The position numbers and the translations under genes were made by a program. From assembly GCA_017445925.1 (NCBI GenBank), contig JAFSRW010000051.1, positions 39,063 to 103,062 on the forward strand: 64,000 nucleotides of DNA, given 5' to 3'. The notes beneath the pieces are model-generated. The model was not told the origin of the DNA. It saw only the letters and a program-made list of their open reading frames with translations, and did not search any database. Positions 2,043-61,500 of this stretch are shown in pieces. The stretch's first letter is position 1. Every line of letters starts with the position of its first letter. Origin of the DNA: Bacteroidaceae bacterium (lineage in GTDB: Bacteria > Bacteroidota > Bacteroidia > Bacteroidales > Bacteroidaceae).

Positions 2043-5000
2043 TTAGAAATTGACTTGCACACCAAAGTTATACACACGTGTCATGGGATAACGCATACCG
2101 AACCCATCCTTTCCGTATCCTGGAGCTTCGGGATCGTTGCCCTTGAAGTTAGCAAATGTCAGCAGGTTCTGACCTGAAACATAGAACCTCACGTAATTGA
2201 ACAATGGTATCCACTTCGGTTTGTTTATGGTATAACCAATCTCTACATTCTTTAAACGCGCATACTTAGCGTCTACAATCCACGCCTGCGAATCACGGTT
2301 GTTATGAACGCGGTTCTCAAACGAGATACGCGGCAAGCAAGCGTTGGGATTGTCCTCCGTCCATGAATTGTCAGCTACCCACTGTGCCAGTGCCGAAGTA
2401 TTTGTGGATCCGAACTGATCACGGAAATATCCGTTCAGCACGCGGCTGGTATTAGTGGCACCTACCCAGAGCATTGAGAAATCAAGACCCTTCCAGTTCA
2501 GACTGGCATTGACTGACCAGGTAAACTCAGGGTTTTCTGTATAGCCAAGGGGCTTTTGGTCATTCTGGTCGATTATACCGTCATTATTCAGGTCAACGTA
2601 TACAGCATCACCGTATTTCAGGTCAATCACCTGATCAGGCATCGGTTTGTTGTATTTTTCGAAGTAACGTTCCTCTGTACCTTCCTGATAGAACTCAAAG
2701 AGGTCATAGCCAAAGCGCTGTCCTACAGGGAGTCCGGTACGGCTCAGATAATCGTACATGGGTGGAACCTCCAGCATATCTATCACCTTGTTTCTGGCAA
2801 AGGCAATGCTTGGACTGATGCTATATCTGAAATCACCTACTTTATCACTCCATTTCAGCGTCAGCTCAAAACCATGATTCTTCACATGGCCCTCGTTGAC
2901 ATAGCCTGAAGGCAGACTGGTTACAGCAGGCAACAGGGCTGCATTCGAAACCAGAATATCCTTACGGTCTTCCCAGAAGAAGTCAAGGTTCATGCCTAAC
3001 CTGTCATTGAAGAAATAGGCATCCAAACCGATATTGAACTTGGAAGCTGTTTCCCATGTAATGTTCGGGTTACCAGTTGCCAACTCCCTGACAGCCTGCA
3101 GCCAGTTGCCGCTCGTACCGAAATTGGCACCACGCATCTGAGGATTTACTGTCATCGAACCCTGATAGAACTGCCAGGGACCCGGCAGATAGAGGAAACG
3201 ATTATAGGAACCATTGGCATTGTCGTTACCAACCTTACCCCAAGAACCACGAATTTTCAGGAAGCTGATAACATCCTTCACGGGCTCCCAGAACTTTTCG
3301 GCCGATGGAATCCAACCCACAGAGACTGATGGGAATATACCATAGCGGTGACCCGGGGCAAAGTTCTCAGATCCATTATAACCTATGTTGAAGTCCAGCA
3401 TGTAACGTGATAGGTAGTCGTAAGTAACACGACCTACGAGTCCCACATATCCCGAAGGAATATCTGTGTAGTAAGTGGGATAATATCTCTTCAACTGGTT
3501 ATAAAGGAACAAAGCACCTACATTGTGATCGCCGAACTTACGAGCGTAGTTGAAACTTGCCTCTCCATACCAGTTACGAGTTCCCCAGCGACTCTCTTCG
3601 TAGGGCAATGGCCACGTAATATTCTCCTTGCGGAGCACCTCCTGACCGTCAACGATAGTTGCCACGTATGTGACACCCGTACCGAATCCGTTCTGACGAT
3701 TCTTTTGTGCCGTATATTCGGAGTTATAAGAACCCTTAATTCTGAAATCCAGACCCGGTGTGAGGAAACTCATGTCGAGTTTGTACTGGAGGTCAAGGTT
3801 GAGCGTATTAGTGCTTGTCTTCGTATAACCTAAGTCATAAAAGTTTGAAAGAGCATCACGGTCGTAAGGACCTACGATGTTGGCATCTGCTACGATATGA
3901 CGGCCTTGGTCGTCAATGCCGATACCGGCGTATGGAGTGGCGCCCTGTAAATAGCGGAATAAGAATGACTCTCCACTACCCATCTCCGTACGGTTCCGGA
4001 CAATGCCTCCCAACGTAAGTGAAAGTTGGCTATACTTGGATATATCAATATCTAAGTTGGCACGATAGTTGAACCTGTTGAAATGGAAGGTCTCATCGTT
4101 ATTCAATGAGAAGGTCTTCAAGAGTGAACTCTGATTCAGGAATCCAGCAGAGATAAAATATCTCACCCTCTCTGAACCACCTTTTACATTCACGTTAACC
4201 TGCTCCTGCCATGCAGCCTTCCTCATCAGATAGTCAATCCAATTGGTATTGGGGAATGTAACAGGCATGTCACCTGTACGGAAATGCTCCATGACATCCT
4301 GGTTGAATCTGATACCAGTGTTAGCGTATGGCGTATAGTCAGAAATATTGGCAGTACCAGGCCACTGATCCACTGGCAAAGCATCTGTGATAGCAGCATA
4401 GTTCCACATCTTTCCGTATGTATAGGAATCAGCGAAGTCAACGAATTTAGAAACCTGCTGTACGGCTGCGCTTGCGGAAACAGAAACAGAGGCCTTGCCA
4501 GTCTCACCACGTTTTGTGGTAACAAGGATTACACCATTGGCACCTCGTACACCGAACACAGCTGTTGCCGAAGCATCTTTCAGAATGGAGATATCCTGAA
4601 TTTCGTTGGGGTCGAGCTGCGAGAAAGGACGCTCAACACCATCCACGAGTACCAGCGGTTCGGCACTGTTCAGGGTACCAATACCACGTACACGGATAGT
4701 AGGTTCATCGTCACCAGGCATACCTGAAGGCTGTACCACAGAAATTCCCGGCAGTTTTCCTTGCAAGGCATTTGCCACGTTAGCCACAGGCTGCTTTAAC
4801 AGCTCCTCTCCTCCCACGGCAGAAACTGCACCAGTAAGAGTCAGCTTCTTCTGTTGTCCGTAAGCGATTACCACGACCTCATCCATGATTTTCTGATCAG
4901 GTTGCAGACTAATGATTAAAGGTTTCCCATCAACCTTGTGTGTCTGCGTCTGGTAACCCATGTAGGAGATCTCCAGAGTTGCACCACGTTCTACCGACTG

Positions 5001-5198
5001 AAGGACAAAGTGGCCGTTGAGATCCGTGAGGGTACCCGCTCCACCGGGGCGCACCTTAACAGTCGCTCCGATAAGGGGTTCTCCCAGCTCGTCTTTCACT
5101 GTTCCCTCCACTGTTGAACTTTGGGCAAACACGACATTAGGTAGCAGGAATAAAATAACCAGCATACCTAACAAATAACTTTTCGTTGTCTTCTTCAT
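2043..5198 (-). CDS. SusC/RagA-family TonB-dependent outer-membrane transporter
   Basis: TonB-dependent beta-barrel porin that imports oligosaccharides (or other large nutrients) with its SusD partner. The 1051-residue protein has a signal peptide ending near VVFAQ (residue 26), then a carboxypeptidase-D-like domain (GTVKDELGEPLIGATVKV, about 30-115). The plug carries the SusC signature (DEVVVIAYGQQKKLTLTGAV, then ISILKDASATAVFGVRGANG), and the protein ends in a long barrel finishing VNF with a terminal aromatic residue. The open frame continues 51 bases further 5', but the ATG at 5198 directly precedes MKKTTKSYLL, a normal leader, so it was chosen. A TAACTTTG -7 element at 5335-5342 implies a leader of about 130 nt. 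There is no N-terminal STN domain, so it is not an obvious anti-sigma-signalling transducer. Confidence 0.95.
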   Translation of the reverse strand: MKKTTKSYLLGMLVILFLLPNVVFAQSSTVEGTVKDELGEPLIGATVKVRPGGAGTLTDLNGHFVLQSVERGATLEISYMGYQTQTHKVDGKPLIISLQPDQKIMDEVVVIAYGQQKKLTLTGAVSAVGGEELLKQPVANVANALQGKLPGISVVQPSGMPGDDEPTIRVRGIGTLNSAEPLVLVDGVERPFSQLDPNEIQDISILKDASATAVFGVRGANGVILVTTKRGETGKASVSVSASAAVQQVSKFVDFADSYTYGKMWNYAAITDALPVDQWPGTANISDYTPYANTGIRFNQDVMEHFRTGDMPVTFPNTNWIDYLMRKAAWQEQVNVNVKGGSERVRYFISAGFLNQSSLLKTFSLNNDETFHFNRFNYRANLDIDISKYSQLSLTLGGIVRNRTEMGSGESFLFRYLQGATPYAGIGIDDQGRHIVADANIVGPYDRDALSNFYDLGYTKTSTNTLNLDLQYKLDMSFLTPGLDFRIKGSYNSEYTAQKNRQNGFGTGVTYVATIVDGQEVLRKENITWPLPYEESRWGTRNWYGEASFNYARKFGDHNVGALFLYNQLKRYYPTYYTDIPSGYVGLVGRVTYDYLSRYMLDFNIGYNGSENFAPGHRYGIFPSVSVGWIPSAEKFWEPVKDVISFLKIRGSWGKVGNDNANGSYNRFLYLPGPWQFYQGSMTVNPQMRGANFGTSGNWLQAVRELATGNPNITWETASKFNIGLDAYFFNDRLGMNLDFFWEDRKDILVSNAALLPAVTSLPSGYVNEGHVKNHGFELTLKWSDKVGDFRYSISPSIAFARNKVIDMLEVPPMYDYLSRTGLPVGQRFGYDLFEFYQEGTEERYFEKYNKPMPDQVIDLKYGDAVYVDLNNDGIIDQNDQKPLGYTENPEFTWSVNASLNWKGLDFSMLWVGATNTSRVLNGYFRDQFGSTNTSALAQWVADNSWTEDNPNACLPRISFENRVHNNRDSQAWIVDAKYARLKNVEIGYTINKPKWIPLFNYVRFYVSGQNLLTFANFKGNDPEAPGYGKDGFGMRYPMTRVYNFGVQVNF

Positions 5199-5334
5199 CT
5201 GATCATGTTTTAATTTGGTATAGTTAAACAATGGGTTAAATTTTATCAATTGAATACTTCACAAAATCCGTTTATACATATTTTATTTAATACCATAATT
5301 AGGCATTTTTGAACAATTTTTAGGTCTTCCCATG

Positions 5335-7200: not shown

Positions 7201-7238
7201 AGGTTAGAGGTTATTGGTTATGGGTTATGGGTTAGAGG
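7201..7238. repeat. Degenerate tandem array, unit about GGTTATGGGTTAGA
   Basis: Head-to-tail variants of GGTTA(G/T)(A/T)(G) directly follow the glyS stop. The same family is seen at 26429-26460, 29147-29195 and 52257-52292 (as its complement). Confidence 0.7.
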
Positions 7239-7262
7239 CAGTACTCAAGTTTAAAGTTTAAA

Positions 7263-7946
7263 GTGAAAGTGAAAAAGATTCTAGTTTTACTAGTTGGACT
7301 AGTTACACTGGTTGGGCTAGCTTTTAGCGTGAGTTCCTGCTCGGAAAAGAGCAATGAGTGGGATCCCTATTACAGTTGGGAGAGCAGGAATGCCCTGTGG
7401 TTTGAGCAGGTGGTAGATTCTGCCCGTACCGCCATTGCTGAGGCTAAAGCCCTATACGGTGAGGACTGGGAGGCACACTGCTCCTGGCGAATGTTCAAGA
7501 GCCTTCAGCGCAGCGCAGATCTTCCCGGTGCTACGACAGACAGCATCGTATGTAAAATCATCACGAAAGGGAATGGTACACAGGAGGTGAATTATACCGA
7601 TTATGTACAAATCCACTTTCGGGGTTGGCTGATGCCTTCGGAATACATAATGTCTGACGGCGTAACGAAGGAAACGAAAAGCGTGGTCTTTGACCAGTCA
7701 TATTACGGCGAATTTAACCCTAAAACAGCAGCTCCTGTCACGATGTATGTGGGAGGAACCATCGAAGGCTTCCAAACGGCATTGCAGAATATGGTGGTAG
7801 GAGACATGTGGTACGTATATGTCCCACAGCAGTTGGCTTATAAAAGCGAATCAAACGGTACCGTTCCTGCCTATAGCACGCTGCGCTTCCTAATGAATCT
7901 GGTAGGTGTGTACGAGGATGTTGAGGATGTACCGGCGTGGAAGTGA
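7263..7946 (+). CDS. FKBP-type peptidyl-prolyl isomerase lipoprotein
   Basis: Predicted periplasmic or outer-membrane-attached prolyl isomerase/chaperone. The leader (VKKILVLLVGLVTLVGLAF) ends in a lipobox-like SVSSC. After a lineage-specific region of about 90 residues comes an FKBP fold: VNYTDYVQIHFRGWL, then VFDQSYYG, GTIEGFQTALQNMVVGDMWYVYVP and a C-terminal strand YSTLRFLMNLVGV. Some aromatic residues of the classical FKBP pocket are replaced, so catalytic activity is uncertain. The start codon is GTG (7263, or the next GTG at 7269). The upstream frame reaches a TAG at 7233 with no ATG between, so a non-ATG start is forced. It lies 65 bp after glyS with repeats between. Confidence 0.82.
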   Translation: MKVKKILVLLVGLVTLVGLAFSVSSCSEKSNEWDPYYSWESRNALWFEQVVDSARTAIAEAKALYGEDWEAHCSWRMFKSLQRSADLPGATTDSIVCKIITKGNGTQEVNYTDYVQIHFRGWLMPSEYIMSDGVTKETKSVVFDQSYYGEFNPKTAAPVTMYVGGTIEGFQTALQNMVVGDMWYVYVPQQLAYKSESNGTVPAYSTLRFLMNLVGVYEDVEDVPAWK

Positions 7947-52992: not shown

Positions 52993-53000
52993 TAACTTTG
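52993..53000 (+). promoter_or_regulatory. -7 element of the GH43-sigma-FecR operon
   Basis: TAACTTTG (TAnnTTTG). An RNA start about 7 nt downstream would fall at or just before the ATG at 53010 and leave about 27 nt of leader for the ATG at 53034. It resembles housekeeping promoters and is not obviously an ECF-type site. Confidence 0.5.
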
Positions 53001-53009
53001 TCCCCCGTA

Positions 53010-54014
53010 ATGAAAAAAACCATAGAAACAATAATGACCCGAAATTGCCGCTTATTCATTTTTTTTCCCATTTTCTTGATGTCACTTTTAGTATGTGCTC
53101 AGGAGGTAAAAAATCCCGTTTGGCCCCGCAATTGGCCCGACCCAACTATATGGAAGGCAGATGATGGACGCTATTATTGTATAGCTACCAATCCGCGACG
53201 CTGTTTGGTAAGCGACGATTTGTTTCAATGGCAAATTTCTGAGATCTCACCTATTGATAATTCCTCTTGGGAGACTATATCTGGTATTTCACGTAATTAT
53301 TGGGCTCCCGATGTGGCAACAGTTAACGGCAAACGTCTCATGTACCTCACCTTATATAATAGTGCCGAGGACAGTAACATTGCCGTCCTGCAAGAAGTAG
53401 AACCATGCCAATTCCAATTCAAAGGAATCATTACCCGAGGAAAAGAAACGGGCATTGAGGATACTATTGATCCTGAAGTTATTACAGACCCCAAGACAGG
53501 AAAAGTGTGGCTCTTCTTTGGGTCAGTTGGTGGCATTCACCGTATTGAGCTTGCTGCAGACGGTCTTTCCCTGAAAGAAGGAGCCAAATATGAGCATGTA
53601 GCCGGCCTGACCGTTCATCAGTGCCCTGACCGTTCAAAAGTTTTTGAAGGCTCCTACCTTCATTACCACAAGGGGTACTGGTATCTGTTCGTCAGCTCAG
53701 GCTTCTTCGGTAATCATACTTACCAGTTACAGGTAGGGCGTAGCAAAAAACTTACAGGCAAATTTGTGAACAAGGAAGGCAAACCCATGGTAGAGGGTTA
53801 TGCCACACCTGTCATACATAGTGATGAAGGGGATAATTTCTTTGGACCTGGCCATTGTGGCGAGATATTTACGGCATCTGACGGCAACGAATACATCTTC
53901 TATCACTGTCATGTACGTGAAAGCCGTCGTCCGGAACAACGTCCAATGTTTATGTCTCGCATCCAGTGGGGCAAAGACGGATGGCCTTATGTTGAAGGAG
54001 GTAAACCAGAGTAA
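53010..54014 (+). CDS. Glycoside hydrolase family 43 enzyme (arabinanase/xylosidase-like)
   Basis: Secreted five-bladed propeller hydrolase, 334 residues from the ATG at 53010. A second ATG at 53034 gives a tighter leader (TRNCRLFIFFPIFLMSLLVCAQ) and suits the promoter position better, so either start is possible. Catalytic residues: base Asp in NWPDPTIWKADDGRYYCIA, pKa-modulating Asp in EDTIDPEVITD, acid Glu in KVFEGSYLHYHKGYWYLFVS; a metal-site His lies in FFGPGHCGEIFTASDG. No accessory domain, unlike the GH43 at 8177. Its stop overlaps the sigma-factor ATG (TAATG), so a glycosidase is translationally coupled to its putative regulator. Confidence 0.9.
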   Translation: MKKTIETIMTRNCRLFIFFPIFLMSLLVCAQEVKNPVWPRNWPDPTIWKADDGRYYCIATNPRRCLVSDDLFQWQISEISPIDNSSWETISGISRNYWAPDVATVNGKRLMYLTLYNSAEDSNIAVLQEVEPCQFQFKGIITRGKETGIEDTIDPEVITDPKTGKVWLFFGSVGGIHRIELAADGLSLKEGAKYEHVAGLTVHQCPDRSKVFEGSYLHYHKGYWYLFVSSGFFGNHTYQLQVGRSKKLTGKFVNKEGKPMVEGYATPVIHSDEGDNFFGPGHCGEIFTASDGNEYIFYHCHVRESRRPEQRPMFMSRIQWGKDGWPYVEGGKPE

Positions 54015-54607
54015 TGCAGACTGACGAGAAATCCATTATTCGTGGCCTTGTAGAAGGCACTGAGGATGCATACAGGTATGTGTTCAAGGTGTACTATGGA
54101 CCTATGTGTATCCTGGCAGAGAGCATTCTCCTTGATGAATTTCTGGCGCAGGCTGCCGTTTCCGACGTTATCAGTCATCTTTATGAGGTGCGCAACGAGA
54201 TTGTTATTCATTCCAATCTCAGAAGTTATCTGATGATGAGTACGCGTAACCACTGCCTTAACCTGCTTAACTCCAAGACTGTTCGCTCCGTACAAACTTT
54301 CAGTACGTTAGGCGAACAGGATGCACGCGAGGTTCTTTCTGGGCTCGACACAGTTACACCGCAAGGAAAACTGCTCGACAATGAATTGGAAGGGTTGATG
54401 CGCGATTGCATTGAGAATCTTCCCGAGCCTGTTAAAACAACTTTTATCAAGAGCCGTTTTCAGGACATGACCTATCGTCAGATAGGTGCTGAAGATGGTG
54501 TCAGTGCCAATACTGTTAAGGTTCGTATTCAGCAAGCGCTCAAGCTGATTGAACAGAGATTTTCAAAGTATTTAACCTTTTTAACAATTTTTATGGTATT
54601 GACCTGA
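54014..54607 (+). CDS. ECF RNA polymerase sigma factor (Bacteroidetes expansion type)
   Basis: 197-residue extracytoplasmic-function sigma factor. Region 2: DAYRYVFKVYYGPMCILAESIL through VSDVISHLYEVRNEI and LRSYLMMSTRNHCLNLL. Region 4: IENLPEPVKTTFIKSRFQDMTYRQIGAEDGVSANTVKVRIQQALK, a complete helix-turn-helix. It is coupled to the GH43 gene in front and followed 29 bp later by its probable FecR-type anti-sigma. In Bacteroidetes such pairs usually control a SusC/SusD transporter that carries an STN domain. None is present here, so the signal input must differ or lie elsewhere. Confidence 0.92.
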   Translation: MQTDEKSIIRGLVEGTEDAYRYVFKVYYGPMCILAESILLDEFLAQAAVSDVISHLYEVRNEIVIHSNLRSYLMMSTRNHCLNLLNSKTVRSVQTFSTLGEQDAREVLSGLDTVTPQGKLLDNELEGLMRDCIENLPEPVKTTFIKSRFQDMTYRQIGAEDGVSANTVKVRIQQALKLIEQRFSKYLTFLTIFMVLT

Positions 54608-54636: not shown

Positions 54637-56508
54637 ATGAAGTCATACATGAAAAATAGAATGAAAGACAAAAAAGATATATCATTACATATCATTGATT
54701 ATCTTACGGGAGAAATCTCGCAAGAGGATGCTGATGCCCTCGCGCAATGGGTTAAGGAATCCGAAGAGAATGCCCGCCAGTTTGTACGCATGAAAGAGGT
54801 ATGGATGGGTTCTTCTATCATTGAGAAAGCCTACGATGGAGAAGCCGCTTTCCTGCGTTTCAAAAGGCGTGTGCTTAATCGGTCTATTATACCTTATACT
54901 ACATGGATGCAGCGTCACCAGTCAACAGTTCGCAATGCCATGTTGTGGGCTGCTGCTATTCTGTTCCCCATCCTGCTCACCTGCACAACCATCATGTACT
55001 ACAATATTAGCAATTTGACTGATGGAGAGATGGTTGCTTCTACAGTAGCTGGTGAAACATCAACGCTGCAACTGCCCGACGGGACAAAGGTGATATTAAA
55101 GGAAAACTCCGAGCTATCCTATTCAACAAGCGACTTCGTACGTGGAAACCGTAATATAAAATTCCAGGGCTCTGCCTATTTCAGTGTTACGTCAGATGCC
55201 AGCCATCCTTTCCTGATTTCAACAGAGAAAGAGCAGGTACGCGTATTAGGAACTGAATTCTATCTGGTCAGCGAGAAAGGCAGTCACAAGGACCTCCTAT
55301 CACTCGACAAAGGAATTGTGGAATTTACTGACAATAAGACTGGCGAAGTAGTACACATGAAAGCCGGCGATGAACTTGTTTACAACACGCTTACAGGCAA
55401 CACCTATTGCAGAGCACGTACCGAGGACGAAGTTAAGTTGGCCCAGGAGACCAATAGGAGCAACTCCGTTTCCAAAGCTGTTTATGCCGAATTGGAACAG
55501 TTGGTAAGTGACCGTGGTGGAAATCATACTATTCAACTGAATGTAAGCAAGGGGCTTAAGGCAGGTCTTTATCAGGTGGAGATTGATTCTAACAATGAGA
55601 TGGCTCGTTTTACACCAGCCAGAGATGCTGCTAAATTCTCTGGTGGAGACGGTAGTAAAGAACATCCGTATCTCATCAGCAACTCACGCCAGATGTGTAA
55701 TATGAAGTCGGCTCTTACTCCTTATAAGATGACTTATTTTGCACTTACCAGCGATATCGACCTACAGAGTGTTGAGTGGATGCCTTTGAACGACAGAGCT
55801 GACGAATATTCTCTTTGGGTAACATTTGATGGTAATGGGCATGTAATCCGTAACCTTACTACTGCACGTACCTGTTATTATGGAAGCTTCTTTGGCGTAT
55901 TATGTGGTGCTTGCAAGAATGTAGGTTTCGAGAATGTCAATATCTTCTGTACCGGCTACGGTGCTGGCGCGATAGCTGGCTATCTGGGACATTCAGCATA
56001 TCCCAACGTATCTGTTATAGAAAACTGCTATGCTACAGGTAGAGTTAGCGGACAGGGTTATGCTGGAGGTCTTGTTGGCAACGTGGGCAGCAAGTCTATC
56101 CTCAACAATTGTTATTCCTCTGTAGATGTGAATAGCATCAGCAGCTATGCCGGAGGATTGGTTGGAAAGGTACGAGCCCCATTTGTTATGGAAGGCTGCT
56201 ACAGCACCGGAAATGTATCCGGCCAGTATGCAGGAGGAGTAGTAGCTGGTGGTCAACTCAAGAGCACACCCCATGCCCGTTACCATAACGTTATTGCTCT
56301 CAATCCCAGTGTATATGGTTCGCTCCAGTCTTATGCCGTTATGCCTATTATTGATGGTGACACGCTGAATCATGTGTCACACTCATCCAACCTCTATCTC
56401 AACGGCAAGCGTCTGAGGAACGGCTTGTCAGACAGAGAGATAAAAGAACGGCTAAACGACATACGCAACGTTTGGTACAGTTCCAAAGTTAGGCAAACTG
56501 CCGAATAA
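54637..56508 (+). CDS. FecR-type anti-sigma factor fused to a GLUG-repeat periplasmic domain
   Basis: 623 residues; ordinary Bacteroidetes FecR proteins have about 330. Residues 1-95 form the cytoplasmic sigma-binding helix region (DYLTGEISQEDADALAQWV). One membrane helix spans about 101-121 (LWAAAILFPILLTCTTIMYY). The FecR domain is about 138-235 (TVAGETSTLQLPDGTKVILKENSELSY, GSAYFSVTSDASHPF, VRVLGTEFYL). In place of the usual C-terminal STN-like domain, residues about 332-600 read as a GLUG/beta-helix region: SGGDGSKEHPYLISN, FDGNGHVIRNLT, YAGGLVGNVGSKSILNNCYS, YAGGLVGK, YAGGVVAGG. These repeats are common in surface adhesins. The domain would lie in the periplasm. Last in the GH43-sigma operon. 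Confidence 0.87.
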   Translation: MKSYMKNRMKDKKDISLHIIDYLTGEISQEDADALAQWVKESEENARQFVRMKEVWMGSSIIEKAYDGEAAFLRFKRRVLNRSIIPYTTWMQRHQSTVRNAMLWAAAILFPILLTCTTIMYYNISNLTDGEMVASTVAGETSTLQLPDGTKVILKENSELSYSTSDFVRGNRNIKFQGSAYFSVTSDASHPFLISTEKEQVRVLGTEFYLVSEKGSHKDLLSLDKGIVEFTDNKTGEVVHMKAGDELVYNTLTGNTYCRARTEDEVKLAQETNRSNSVSKAVYAELEQLVSDRGGNHTIQLNVSKGLKAGLYQVEIDSNNEMARFTPARDAAKFSGGDGSKEHPYLISNSRQMCNMKSALTPYKMTYFALTSDIDLQSVEWMPLNDRADEYSLWVTFDGNGHVIRNLTTARTCYYGSFFGVLCGACKNVGFENVNIFCTGYGAGAIAGYLGHSAYPNVSVIENCYATGRVSGQGYAGGLVGNVGSKSILNNCYSSVDVNSISSYAGGLVGKVRAPFVMEGCYSTGNVSGQYAGGVVAGGQLKSTPHARYHNVIALNPSVYGSLQSYAVMPIIDGDTLNHVSHSSNLYLNGKRLRNGLSDREIKERLNDIRNVWYSSKVRQTAE

Positions 56509-56805: not shown

Positions 56806-59800
56806 ATGAGAAAGAGAATTACTTCCGTTTTCCTTACTACACTGCTAAGCATGGTAGGAATTAGTGCTTGGGCACAAGAGAGTGACCGGCTCTCGTTTGG
56901 CGTCATCTCCGATGTCCACTTCGAGAACAATGTTGGTGAGGGAGCTATGGTAAAGGTACCACAGGCTCTGAGAAACCTCACCTCTCATGGGGCGCTCGAT
57001 GCCTTGGCTGTTGTTGGCGACCTTGCCAATGCTGGAAAAACTTCTGAATACCAGATGCTCACAAGTGTCTTTTCTGACAAGACTAACTTCACTAACCCCG
57101 TAGGAACGTTCCTTTTCCTGATGGGTAACCATGATAATATGGATGCCAACGGAACAGCGAACTACCAGAATGGACTGAAATCCTTCAATAACAATGAGTC
57201 TTATCCCTTGCATCAATACAAGGTTATCAAGGGCTATCCCTTCATCACCATCAGTATGCGCACCAGTTCCAGCAACGATACCAGTAGTGCCGCCACTGGC
57301 ACTGCCGCCTATCCTCAGGATGTGGTAAATCAGTTGGAAGCTTGGTTGGAGCAGGCAAGCAAGGAATGCCCGGGCAAACCCATCTTTGTATTCACCCATG
57401 TTCCTCCACGCTGGTCGGTCTATGGTTCATGGCCGGAATATGAGTCGGGAAGCGCATGGGGTATGAAGGTGCTGAACCCTGTGCTCAACAAATACCCACA
57501 GGCAGTAGTGTTTGCCGGACACAGCCATTATCCTCTGGGCGACCCGCGAAGCATTCACCAGGGTGCCAACCCCAACTCAGAACGCAACAACTATTATACC
57601 GTTATCAATACGGCCAGCACTACCTATTCCGAGGTTAACCCAGGAGCCGTCAACGCAGGTATACATCCCGAAGGTTACGCCTATGTTACCGAAGGCTTGA
57701 TTGTAAGCGAGCTGGAGAATGGCGATATCGATATCACCCGCTACGACACCTATCGCAACCTTGAAATCGGTGCTGAGCACTGGGTACTGAAGGCTCCCTT
57801 CGACGGTTCAAAGTTCGAATATGCCGACATCCGCGATGCCGATGACAATCCCAACAACAATCCCCTGAGGAAAGGTAAGTCGGCTCCCGTATTCACCAAG
57901 AGTGCTGAGATAACAGTAAAGCCTCTGGCCTACGAAGTCACCGCCTCGTTCCCGCAGGCTACGGATGACGAGTGCGTGTTCCGCTATCGCATCCGTCTCA
58001 GCAAGGACGGATTGGTGCTTTCCGAGAAATTCGTATTCTCACAATTCTACCTGAATCCTGATGCGCCCAAGACATTAAGCATTAATCTATCTAATCTTAC
58101 TGCCGAAACAAAATACGAACTGGAAGTTGTGGCCCTCGACTCTTACGACAATGCCTCCGTACCACTTACCACAACCTTCAAGACCCTTGAAGCTACCGAA
58201 GGCAATACCGTTCCCGATGCGGACGGCCAATGGCAGTTCCAGGATACTGAGAACCTGCTAAAACCCACAACAGGCAACCTGTCCTTAACGCCTTGCATTG
58301 TTGGCAGCAAGAAGGTCGAAGTGGCTGAGAGCCTGGAAGATGCCGACATTCAGCCAACCGAAGGCCCCACCGCTGAGAACAAAGCCATTCTGGTCCCCAA
58401 AAACTCCGCTTTGAGGGTGAATCGTATTGCCGGCACTGCCACTCAGAACTACACCATTCTGATGGACATAAAAATGAAGGATGCCGTTTCTTACAACGGA
58501 TTGCTCCAGACCAATCAAGGCAATACTAACGACGGCGACCTGTTTATTCACAATAACACCATCGGCATAAATGCCATGGGAGGATATTTTGGTGAAATCA
58601 AGGACGACACCTGGTATCGCATCGTCATGCTGAACCGCGACGATAAGGTCTTCGTCTATGTAGATGGAGAGAAAGTCATTGAAAAGGCAACCACAGATTT
58701 ACGTTGGGAACTTGACCCATGGGGATTCTATCTCTTCTGCGACGAAGACGGCGAGATGACCGCTACCGAAGTGTCCGAGATAGCCTTCTGGGAGAAAGCT
58801 CTCTCAGAAAATCAGGTGAGAAGCCTCTCCGGACTTGACCCATACGACGATGGGCAGCAAGACCCCTACCTCACCGTTAAGACCCCAAGCGTCAGACTGG
58901 TAAACGAGCAGGACTTCTCCATCACAATAGATGCCAATGTCCCTTTTACATTCGAGCTCCCCGATTGGATTGAGCCCGTCGATGTAACACCTTTCCTGGG
59001 TGTGAGAGCATATACCTTCCGCGCAAAGACCGATGTGCAGAACGAACGTTGCGAGGGCACCATTAAGGTCGTAAGCGAAGAGGCTGGCACACACGATGTT
59101 GAGGTTGTGGTATTCATGGGCGATGATATCCCCGAAGTACTGGGTTCCTGGACTTTCGACGATGCAAATAATCTTCTGGACGGAGGCACCTTTCCCTCTA
59201 TACTACAGGGAGCTTTTAAGGGCAGCGAAGGCCCGGAGAAGAACTCCGACCTCGCATCCATCGGGATTAACCCCGTAGCAGGTCCTGTGGAGGATAACGG
59301 AGCCATCAGCGTCCCTAAGGATGCCTATCTCTGGTTTACGCCCAATGCCGACACAGATGTCCTTCAAGACTACACCTTTCTCATCGATATAAAGCCCGCC
59401 GACCTGACCGGCTACAAGGCCATCTTTCAACACGACGTTACAAATCAGGAAGATGCCGGACTTTTTATCAAGAATAACCAAGTAGGACGTGGTGGTTCTA
59501 TCGGATATGTAGGTAACCTGCAACTCGACAAGTGGTATCGTTTGCTGTTTGTGGTTAAGAACAACCGTGCCACCCTTTATCTCGACGGCGAAAAAGTAGG
59601 CGAGTCCTCCTCCCAACAAGAGTATTGGACCATCACCAACGAAGCCCTCCTCTTTGCCGATGAAAACGGCGAGGAGGGATTGGTCGATATCGCCGGAATG
59701 CGTTTCTGGGACCTTCCCCTTTCCCCTACTCAGGCCAAGAGGCTCGGTGATGTCTATAAGGATGTAGAGGAATACTTCGCAGTACAGACCTCTGGTGTGC

Positions 59801-61500
59801 GCCTCCTTGAGAAAACCGACTTTACCATCTCTGTCAACTCCAATGTTCCCTTTACCTTCGACTTTCCCGAATGGATAGAGCCCGTCGATACCGCATTCGT
59901 CAGTGGCGAAAAGGAATACAAGTTCCGTGCCACACCTCTGGAAGAGGCTGGTCGCCGAAGCGCCATCATCGAGGTCAATGCAGAATACTTCCCCCTACAG
60001 GAAGTGAATGTTCTACAAATCAAGGTGGGCGAGGAACTGCCCGAGAGTACAGGTAACTGGACGTTCGACGATCCCTCTCACCTCATGGACGGCACAGGTT
60101 CCGCAACCATAAAGGCAGCATTTAAGACCGAGAACGGTCCGCAGACCACCGAAGACCCCTCAGAGGCTGGAATAGAAACCGTAGAAGGACCTACAGACGA
60201 TAATAAAGCCATAACCATGCCTGTACCAGGTTACCTCATGCTAACCAATAATACAGGCTTCGCCGAGCTTACAGACTACAGCATTATGTTTGATGTAAGA
60301 CCCCTGACGCTGGATGGCTATCGTGCACTCTTACAGACCAATCCGCTTAATACCACCGACGGATGCTTGTTTATTAAGAATGGAGCTGTTGGCCTGAACA
60401 ACAATGGATTAGGCTATCATGGCATCATGCAAGACGGTAAATGGCACCGCATCGTCTTTGTTGTTAAGGAAGGCTTTGCCTTTACCTATCTGGACGGGAA
60501 GAGAGTGGGCCAAAGCACCGTGGCCGACCTCACCCTATGGACCCTACGCCCCGATGCGCTTCTTTTTGCCGACGATAACGACGAGGACGGCTATAACGAA
60601 GTTGCCGAGGTAGGCTTCTGGGATGTTCCTCTAACCGACGAGCACGTAGCACTTCTAGGCGATGTACAGCAGGGTTGGATTGACGACCCCATGGAAGACC
60701 CCATTAGCGTATGGACCTTCGATGATAAGACCGACCTTCTGGCAGGCACAGGAACCGCCACCCTGCGAGGTGCAGTCAAAGGCGAAGACGGTTACCCTGT
60801 AGCCACAGATGACCTTGCTGCAGCCGGCATTGTTCCTACAGCAGGACCTACAGACGACAATAAAGCCATTACCGTTCCTGTCGACACCTATCTGCAGTTC
60901 TTGCACAATCAGGAGGACGATCAGTCAACCTTCACCTTTATGATGGACATCCATCCCAAGGACGTTACCATTTACAATGCACTCTTCCAGAGCCAAGCCC
61001 TGAACAATAAGGATGCCAGCCTCTTCATCAGCCCGCAGCAGAAACTGGGCATCAACTCAAGCGGATTGGGCTATGGCGGAACCATAGTCGAAGGAAAATG
61101 GCACCGCATCGTCTTTGTCGTTGATAACTACAGCATTTCCACTTATCTCGACGGAGACAGGATTGGCACCTCCTCCTCAGGCAATTCCGACAAGTGGGTA
61201 CTTCACGATGTGGCCTATTTCTTTGCCGACGATAATGGCGAGGAAGGAATTGTGGACATTGCCGAGCTCCGTTATTGGGATGTAGCTCTTGCCGCCATAC
61301 ACGTTGAGAAACTGGGTACCATAGAGGAAGACCCCGATGCCATTAGGACTATTGATAGTGCTTCAACCTCCATGTTCAATGGTCAATCAGACAACATCTA
61401 CGACCTCACAGGCCGCAAACTCAATGTTCAATGTTCAATGTTCAATGGATTAAAGAAAGGTCTTTATATCGTTAACGGTAAAAAAGTGCTTGTGAAGTAA
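56806..61500 (+). CDS. Multidomain surface protein: metallophosphoesterase, four LamG-like and two BACON-like domains, T9SS-like tail
   Basis: 1564 residues. Signal peptide to about residue 24. Calcineurin-like phosphoesterase about 30-290 with all metal motifs: SDVH (Asp36/His38), GDLANAG (Asp72), GNHD (Asn108/His109), FTHVPP (His198), GHSH (His239/His241). Fibronectin-III-like segment about 375-460. Four LamG/concanavalin-like domains begin near 476, 782, 1085 and 1300 (each opens with a W(Q/T)F(Q/D)D-type strand and ends FADxNGE(E/D)G...WDVxL). BACON-like segments at about 690-775 and 986-1080 (FSITIDANVPFTFELPDWIEPV; FTISVNSNVPFTFDFPEWIEPV). The last 40 residues (IYDLTGRKL, then KGLYIVNGKKVLVK) resemble a type IX secretion sorting tail. 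A GTTCAAT array lies within that tail. The substrate is unknown; probably a glycan- or nucleotide-linked phosphate. Confidence 0.85.
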   Translation: MRKRITSVFLTTLLSMVGISAWAQESDRLSFGVISDVHFENNVGEGAMVKVPQALRNLTSHGALDALAVVGDLANAGKTSEYQMLTSVFSDKTNFTNPVGTFLFLMGNHDNMDANGTANYQNGLKSFNNNESYPLHQYKVIKGYPFITISMRTSSSNDTSSAATGTAAYPQDVVNQLEAWLEQASKECPGKPIFVFTHVPPRWSVYGSWPEYESGSAWGMKVLNPVLNKYPQAVVFAGHSHYPLGDPRSIHQGANPNSERNNYYTVINTASTTYSEVNPGAVNAGIHPEGYAYVTEGLIVSELENGDIDITRYDTYRNLEIGAEHWVLKAPFDGSKFEYADIRDADDNPNNNPLRKGKSAPVFTKSAEITVKPLAYEVTASFPQATDDECVFRYRIRLSKDGLVLSEKFVFSQFYLNPDAPKTLSINLSNLTAETKYELEVVALDSYDNASVPLTTTFKTLEATEGNTVPDADGQWQFQDTENLLKPTTGNLSLTPCIVGSKKVEVAESLEDADIQPTEGPTAENKAILVPKNSALRVNRIAGTATQNYTILMDIKMKDAVSYNGLLQTNQGNTNDGDLFIHNNTIGINAMGGYFGEIKDDTWYRIVMLNRDDKVFVYVDGEKVIEKATTDLRWELDPWGFYLFCDEDGEMTATEVSEIAFWEKALSENQVRSLSGLDPYDDGQQDPYLTVKTPSVRLVNEQDFSITIDANVPFTFELPDWIEPVDVTPFLGVRAYTFRAKTDVQNERCEGTIKVVSEEAGTHDVEVVVFMGDDIPEVLGSWTFDDANNLLDGGTFPSILQGAFKGSEGPEKNSDLASIGINPVAGPVEDNGAISVPKDAYLWFTPNADTDVLQDYTFLIDIKPADLTGYKAIFQHDVTNQEDAGLFIKNNQVGRGGSIGYVGNLQLDKWYRLLFVVKNNRATLYLDGEKVGESSSQQEYWTITNEALLFADENGEEGLVDIAGMRFWDLPLSPTQAKRLGDVYKDVEEYFAVQTSGVRLLEKTDFTISVNSNVPFTFDFPEWIEPVDTAFVSGEKEYKFRATPLEEAGRRSAIIEVNAEYFPLQEVNVLQIKVGEELPESTGNWTFDDPSHLMDGTGSATIKAAFKTENGPQTTEDPSEAGIETVEGPTDDNKAITMPVPGYLMLTNNTGFAELTDYSIMFDVRPLTLDGYRALLQTNPLNTTDGCLFIKNGAVGLNNNGLGYHGIMQDGKWHRIVFVVKEGFAFTYLDGKRVGQSTVADLTLWTLRPDALLFADDNDEDGYNEVAEVGFWDVPLTDEHVALLGDVQQGWIDDPMEDPISVWTFDDKTDLLAGTGTATLRGAVKGEDGYPVATDDLAAAGIVPTAGPTDDNKAITVPVDTYLQFLHNQEDDQSTFTFMMDIHPKDVTIYNALFQSQALNNKDASLFISPQQKLGINSSGLGYGGTIVEGKWHRIVFVVDNYSISTYLDGDRIGTSSSGNSDKWVLHDVAYFFADDNGEEGIVDIAELRYWDVALAAIHVEKLGTIEEDPDAIRTIDSASTSMFNGQSDNIYDLTGRKLNVQCSMFNGLKKGLYIVNGKKVLVK
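61408..61447. repeat. In-frame ATGTTCA array in the sorting-tail codons
   Basis: Three to four copies of AATGTTC, encoding LNVQCSMFNG between the two conserved parts of the C-terminal tail. A single related unit (ATGTTCAATGGTCAA) lies at 61373-61387. Confidence 0.75.

Follow-up and report, generated by a model that had tools for sequence, protein, structure and literature searches.

FecR-type regulators are viewed as relays dependent on an outer-membrane receptor. In the known regulators, the signal enters at the C-terminal part of the anti-sigma factor and is passed to the N-terminus by a cascade of proteolytic steps, with self-cleavage of FoxR reported as not essential (PMC9249621). PupR is described as having a juxta-membrane domain and then an STN domain beyond the membrane, both of which are required for receptor binding (PMC7186176). 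Clostridium thermocellum RsgI proteins bind cellulose, xylan or pectin through outer CBM, PA14 or GH10 domains (PMC4711584), and some ECF52/53 proteins are described in a review as having predicted carbohydrate-binding and hydrolase domains that await experimental validation (PMC10766802).

We analyzed a 64,000-nucleotide stretch of a Bacteroidaceae genome, here called the window, in which a FecR domain and a GLUG domain are encoded in one chain next to genes for a GH43 enzyme and an ECF sigma factor. The features of this locus, all on the forward (+) strand, are as follows:

52993..53000, +, TAACTTTG element upstream of the operon, from aligned upstream regions
53034..54014, +, GH43 enzyme, arabinanase-like; open reading frame from 52998, with the ATG at 53034 aligned in 9/9 loci
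54014-54607, +, ECF sigma factor; Sigma70_r4_2, 43.5 bits
54637-56508, +, FecR/GLUG open reading frame; 623 aa, ATG start, single open chain
54637..54936, +, cytoplasmic putative anti-sigma region of the FecR/GLUG protein, residues 1-100; DUF4880, 17.7 bits, sub-threshold
54937..54999, +, single membrane helix, residues ~101-121; hydropathy maximum 2.03
55039..55422, +, FecR domain, residues 135-262; Pfam match to 135-216 and alignment with E. coli FecR
55423..55635, +, spacer, residues 263-333, occupying the FecR_C position; mostly absent from the divergent homolog in genome G096
55636..56508, +, GLUG domain and C-terminal tail, residues 334-623; Pfam Glug, PDB 3n6z and GH43-enzyme domains

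Like FecR, PupR and FoxR, the protein has a cytoplasmic N-terminus, one membrane helix, a juxta-membrane FecR domain, an adjacent ECF sigma factor and the conserved Gly-Thr bond, but it is without a C-terminal STN-like module or a nearby TonB receptor and carries a GLUG domain of about 290 residues instead. It shares a FecR domain, a sigma factor and carbohydrate genes alongside with the ECF/anti-sigma regulators of Bacteroidetes SusC/SusD loci, yet it has neither FecR_C nor SusC/SusD, and its conserved partner is a GH43 enzyme. With RsgI it shares the layout of a transmembrane anti-sigma factor whose outer domain is of a type also present on secreted enzymes (CBM3, PA14 and GH10 in RsgI). However, the anti-sigma domain and the sigma factor are different (RsgI is paired with SigI), and the outer domain would face the periplasm rather than being displayed on a Gram-positive surface. 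Polysaccharide binding has been shown for RsgI, whereas for the FecR/GLUG protein glycan binding is a prediction. Neither the RsgI N-terminal domain nor a SigI-type sigma factor was among the matches listed by Pfam or NCBIfam, and the sigma factor of the window is Bacteroidetes ECF-like.

Both halves of the protein scored above their Pfam cut-offs, with FecR (PF04773) at 51 bits over residues 135-216 (cut-off of 24) and Glug (PF07581) at 35.9 bits in three stretches (cut-off of 20.5), so the single-chain combination called in the first-pass annotation held. The FecR part matched two putative anti-sigma structures in the PDB, 4m0n and 4m0h. Residues 334-512 of the GLUG half matched 3n6z (E = 6.9e-34), a 'putative immunoglobulin A1 protease' with a GLUG-type domain to which the FecR part had no match. 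The hydropathy peak (windows beginning at residues 98-103) placed one membrane helix after an N-terminal cytoplasmic region, as that annotation had also proposed, and DUF4880 matched residues 25-54 of this region below threshold (17.7 bits compared to a cut-off of 25). Gly205-Thr206 (55249-55254) aligned with the self-cleavage bond Gly181-Thr182 of E. coli FecR, and both residues were invariant in 10/10 FecR/GLUG copies. FecR_C (PF16344) was not found in the protein among Pfam matches up to E = 0.1, bearing out the suggested absence of an STN-docking module. The idea that the spacer is a remnant of FecR_C found no support, with no match in Pfam and no visible likeness in the alignment.

Among 139 genomes of the genus, full-length copies of the protein were found in nine, including its own (70-100% identity), with the eight orthologs in other genomes being 70-95% identical to the window protein and no internal stop in any full-length copy. 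A ninth other genome, G096, contained a divergent copy of 563 residues (37% identity) in which Glug scored 31.2 bits in Pfam. A frame error or assembly join at about 55600-55640, raised earlier as a possible source of the fusion, was ruled out by the same uninterrupted chain in eight other genomes, with low dN/dS. Nor did close relatives have a FecR gene separate from a GLUG gene, another refuting case raised earlier: the 15 FecR matches in the 139 genomes consisted of 10 fusions and 5 proteins with FecR_C. Median dN/dS was 0.059 for FecR and 0.054 for GLUG, compared with higher medians in the cytoplasmic part (0.120), the surroundings of the membrane helix (0.145), the spacer (0.137) and the tail (0.099); because synonymous sites were near saturation and few pairs were usable (21/36 for FecR and 12/36 for GLUG), these values indicate strong constraint and nothing finer. 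We conclude that the open reading frame is a real, conserved and selected gene encoding an unusual member of the FecR family.

These data also bear on a view in which GLUG binds no ligand and has a passive, structural role as a stabilizer or protease shield, while the signal comes from proteolysis or envelope stress. It is in keeping with such a role that GLUG repeats also occur in long proteins and that GLUG is without a known ligand. Against it, the median dN/dS of GLUG was like that of FecR and below those of the spacer and the tail, and the FecR/GLUG copies, conserved over their full length, group in a single clade, so we regard a purely structural role as unlikely.

The association with a GH43 gene and a sigma gene proved to be conserved, with the order GH43, sigma, FecR/GLUG intact in 8/8 orthologous loci and the sigma gene adjoining FecR/GLUG in the window, in these eight loci and in G096. 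The three genes run in the same direction in the window, where the GH43 end and the sigma start overlap by one base. The same base sharing was observed in L035, L036 and L038, and the length of the GH43-sigma gap varies among loci, being filled with short repeats like GAGTTTAAGA in L033 and L034 (about 7220-7378). The operon GH43 scored 140.7 bits in Pfam, had endo-1,5-alpha-L-arabinanases as its best PDB matches and, on direct reading of the sequence, has a signal peptide and no sorting tail; the Asp/Asp/Glu motifs of GH43 were kept in 9/9 operon enzymes. The sigma factor was without a Pfam match to Sigma70_r2 and scored 111.9 bits for TIGR02985 (below the cut-off of 126.4) and 64.9 bits for TIGR02937 (above the cut-off of 42.9). 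On the 14-kb contig of G096, the neighborhood consisted of GH43, GH31, sigma (42% identity), FecR/GLUG, aldose epimerase and GH43.

Genes downstream of FecR/GLUG did not hold up as conserved partners, as their content changes among the eight orthologous loci. The window contains at 56806-61500 a gene for a 1,564-residue protein with a metallophosphoesterase and several LamG-type domains; it was rejected as a conserved partner, being present in 2/8 orthologous loci, on the opposite strand in one of them (L033), and not found in the examined flank of six other relatives. GH127 was rejected as well, occurring in none of the examined flanks of the eight orthologous loci, some of which were short.

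In 9/9 genomes with the orthologous unit, the unit was adjoined by an opposite-direction block of purH-like and mreB-mreC-mreD-PBP2-rodA-like genes, named by direct reading of the frames (mreB was masked by a longer overlapping frame in two loci). This neighborhood would suit a GLUG domain that monitors the state of the cell wall or envelope by binding peptidoglycan or some other envelope component. GLUG domains, moreover, occur in surface proteins. However, the mreBCD block runs opposite to the unit, whose operon partner is GH43, and the G096 copy keeps GH43 neighbors on a contig without the mreBCD block; we consider a wall or envelope sensor improbable.

The C-terminal half had initially been described as a GLUG region of the adhesin type. 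Its identity as a GLUG domain stood, but it is not simply an adhesin-derived segment: within the genus, and fusions aside, it matched best the C-terminal domains of arabinanase-like GH43 proteins of ~1,000 residues. GH43 and GLUG lay in one frame in 43/43 of these genes, one per genome, with 36-43% identity in GLUG (in the L016 gene, just the final part of the GH43 domain is inside the frame). Two of the enzymes were scanned with Pfam and scored 167.5 and 178.4 bits for GH43 and 20.8 and 18.3 bits for Glug; because the latter scores are at or below the cut-off of 20.5, the link between the enzymes and GLUG rests on pairwise similarity. The GLUG-bearing GH43 of the window's own genome had endo-1,5-alpha-L-arabinanases as its best PDB matches and, on direct reading, a signal-peptide-like start and an apparent secretion-sorting tail at its end. 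Divergent from this GH43-GLUG gene (L043:1-2497; G000:C15:19000-21496) lies an ECF sigma gene, accompanied by an overlapping protein that is possibly another unusual anti-sigma factor: its N-terminus has a segment resembling a membrane helix, and it matched the TonB-receptor Plug domain at 33.7 bits.

In a tree of 48 GLUG domains, the ten FecR/GLUG copies formed one clade (support of 97/95) and 22 GH43 copies another (100/99), both inside a larger group that also contained the GLUG domains of long repeat proteins (without an enzyme domain in Pfam in the four scanned). Neither the GH43 group nor the long repeat proteins were supported as nearer kin of the FecR/GLUG clade, and the G096 domain was a long branch whose placement was flagged as unsure by the tree program. 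A GH43-GLUG enzyme was found in at least 8/10 genomes with FecR/GLUG compared to at least 35/129 others (Fisher p = 0.0013, kinship ignored), these counts being lower bounds from the matches listed after scoring at most the nine best candidates per genome. The GLUG protein examined in G101 had no GH43, and in G096 its fusion was alone among the matches listed. This co-occurrence is confounded because the unit occupies the same locus in 9/10 genomes, which probably represent one lineage, and the presence of the enzyme without the FecR/GLUG protein in at least 35 genomes counts against the reading favored below. The similarity of the GLUG half to domains of GH43 enzymes favors a glycan ligand over the cell-wall state that had first been offered as a possible input.

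FecR itself is rare in the genus, with a single match in each of 15/139 genomes, ten of them GLUG fusions and five conventional. Many sampled genomes of the family, unlike those of the genus, have several FecR domains. The conventional proteins, from five other species, all had FecR_C (5/5) and a SusC-like gene beside them (5/5); two of these SusCs were scanned with Pfam (E = 0.001) without an STN match, although the N-terminal stretch of each is of a length that would fit one. For the FecR/GLUG protein, the SusC-like (2043-5249) and SusD-like (1-2008) genes found in the window lie about 49 kb away, and no SusC-like gene was detected in the examined flanks of the eight orthologs or G096 (L032-L040; four SusC and two SusD queries), in line with the first-pass annotation. 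FecR_C (PF16344) was not found anywhere in the window's own assembly, which is 83.7% complete, and such absences are provisional because the relatives are mostly incomplete as well. Given the absence of an STN-docking module, the conserved GH43 and sigma genes and the lack of an adjacent SusC/SusD pair, the signaling layout is unlike the SusC relay, as had been proposed.

An alternative is that the signal still comes from an outer-membrane receptor and that the GLUG domain, rather than sensing a ligand, is a different kind of arm by which the protein docks to a TonB receptor or some other protein of the envelope. Because PupR needs both its juxta-membrane and its STN subdomain for receptor binding (PMC7186176) and the FecR domain is retained here, part of a docking surface may remain. 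The window's own genome also has one STN-domain SusC (L114:2-4791; G000:C10), followed by a SusD-like gene, at the start of a contig, so that its upstream neighbors, any regulator included, are off the contig. But the absence of FecR_C from the protein, the failure to find it in the assembly, the examined flanks without a SusC-like gene and the fact that the GLUG domain is common to GH43 enzymes all weigh against docking, to which we assign little likelihood.

The TAACTTTG element was present in 8/9 aligned regions upstream of the operon, with TATCTTTG in the ninth (L034), and it fits what we take to be the Bacteroidales housekeeping -7 consensus, TAnnTTTG. A sigma-specific promoter motif was not identified in the nine aligned regions, which contained the housekeeping-like element only. 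Since the operon promoter looks housekeeping, some sensor and GH43 would be made constantly, ahead of any induction.

Among the matches listed, no FecR/GLUG fusion was seen outside the genus in 399 genomes of the family (longest FecR frame, 441 aa) or 384 genomes of the order (404 aa), in searches that took at most the best five to six candidates per genome and may have missed fusions. On this basis, the fusion looks confined to one genus. A search of 393 genomes of the order with the GLUG half matched nine, the window's own included, with 15 matches outside that genome; the eight loci read among these had no FecR similarity in the part examined. Of six named records, two mention sheep rumen and yak reticulum, and the remaining four have RUG or RUI isolate names, which presumably denote ruminant samples. 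A literature search, which covered few subscription journals, found no paper on a FecR-GLUG protein among those listed; one paper has a GLUG protein in a list of Bacillus surface anchors.

On balance, we lean toward reading the protein as a FecR-family transmembrane anti-sigma factor in which the docking FecR_C has probably been replaced by a GH43-type GLUG domain that senses a periplasmic oligosaccharide and releases the sigma factor. Sugar sensing by the protein is plausible. With no signal present, the N-terminal region would hold the co-encoded ECF sigma factor. The FecR juxta-membrane domain is kept and the STN module is replaced. On the simplest reading, the GLUG domain would be the new signal receiver, with a sugar that the GH43 system releases as its partner; it would bind a periplasmic oligosaccharide, for which an arabinan type is the best guess. 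Binding may alter the FecR domain, perhaps already self-cleaved at Gly205-Thr206, so that proteases in the periplasm and within the membrane can attack it. The freed sigma factor, with or without the N-terminal fragment, would then switch on carbohydrate genes.

A broader interpretation, which we hold more tentatively and would stop short of calling probable, is that the protein represents a direct-sensing branch of the FecR family in which an arabinanase's accessory domain took the place of the docking module. A single protein would then read what its own enzyme system produces in the periplasm, with no TonB receptor, as a Gram-negative parallel to RsgI that arose independently in one genus. 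If direct sensing is correct, a FecR domain could be driven by a ligand with no docking module, providing a compact module for the coupling of signal input to sigma release. It would also hint at what the GLUG domain does in GH43 enzymes of Bacteroidales.
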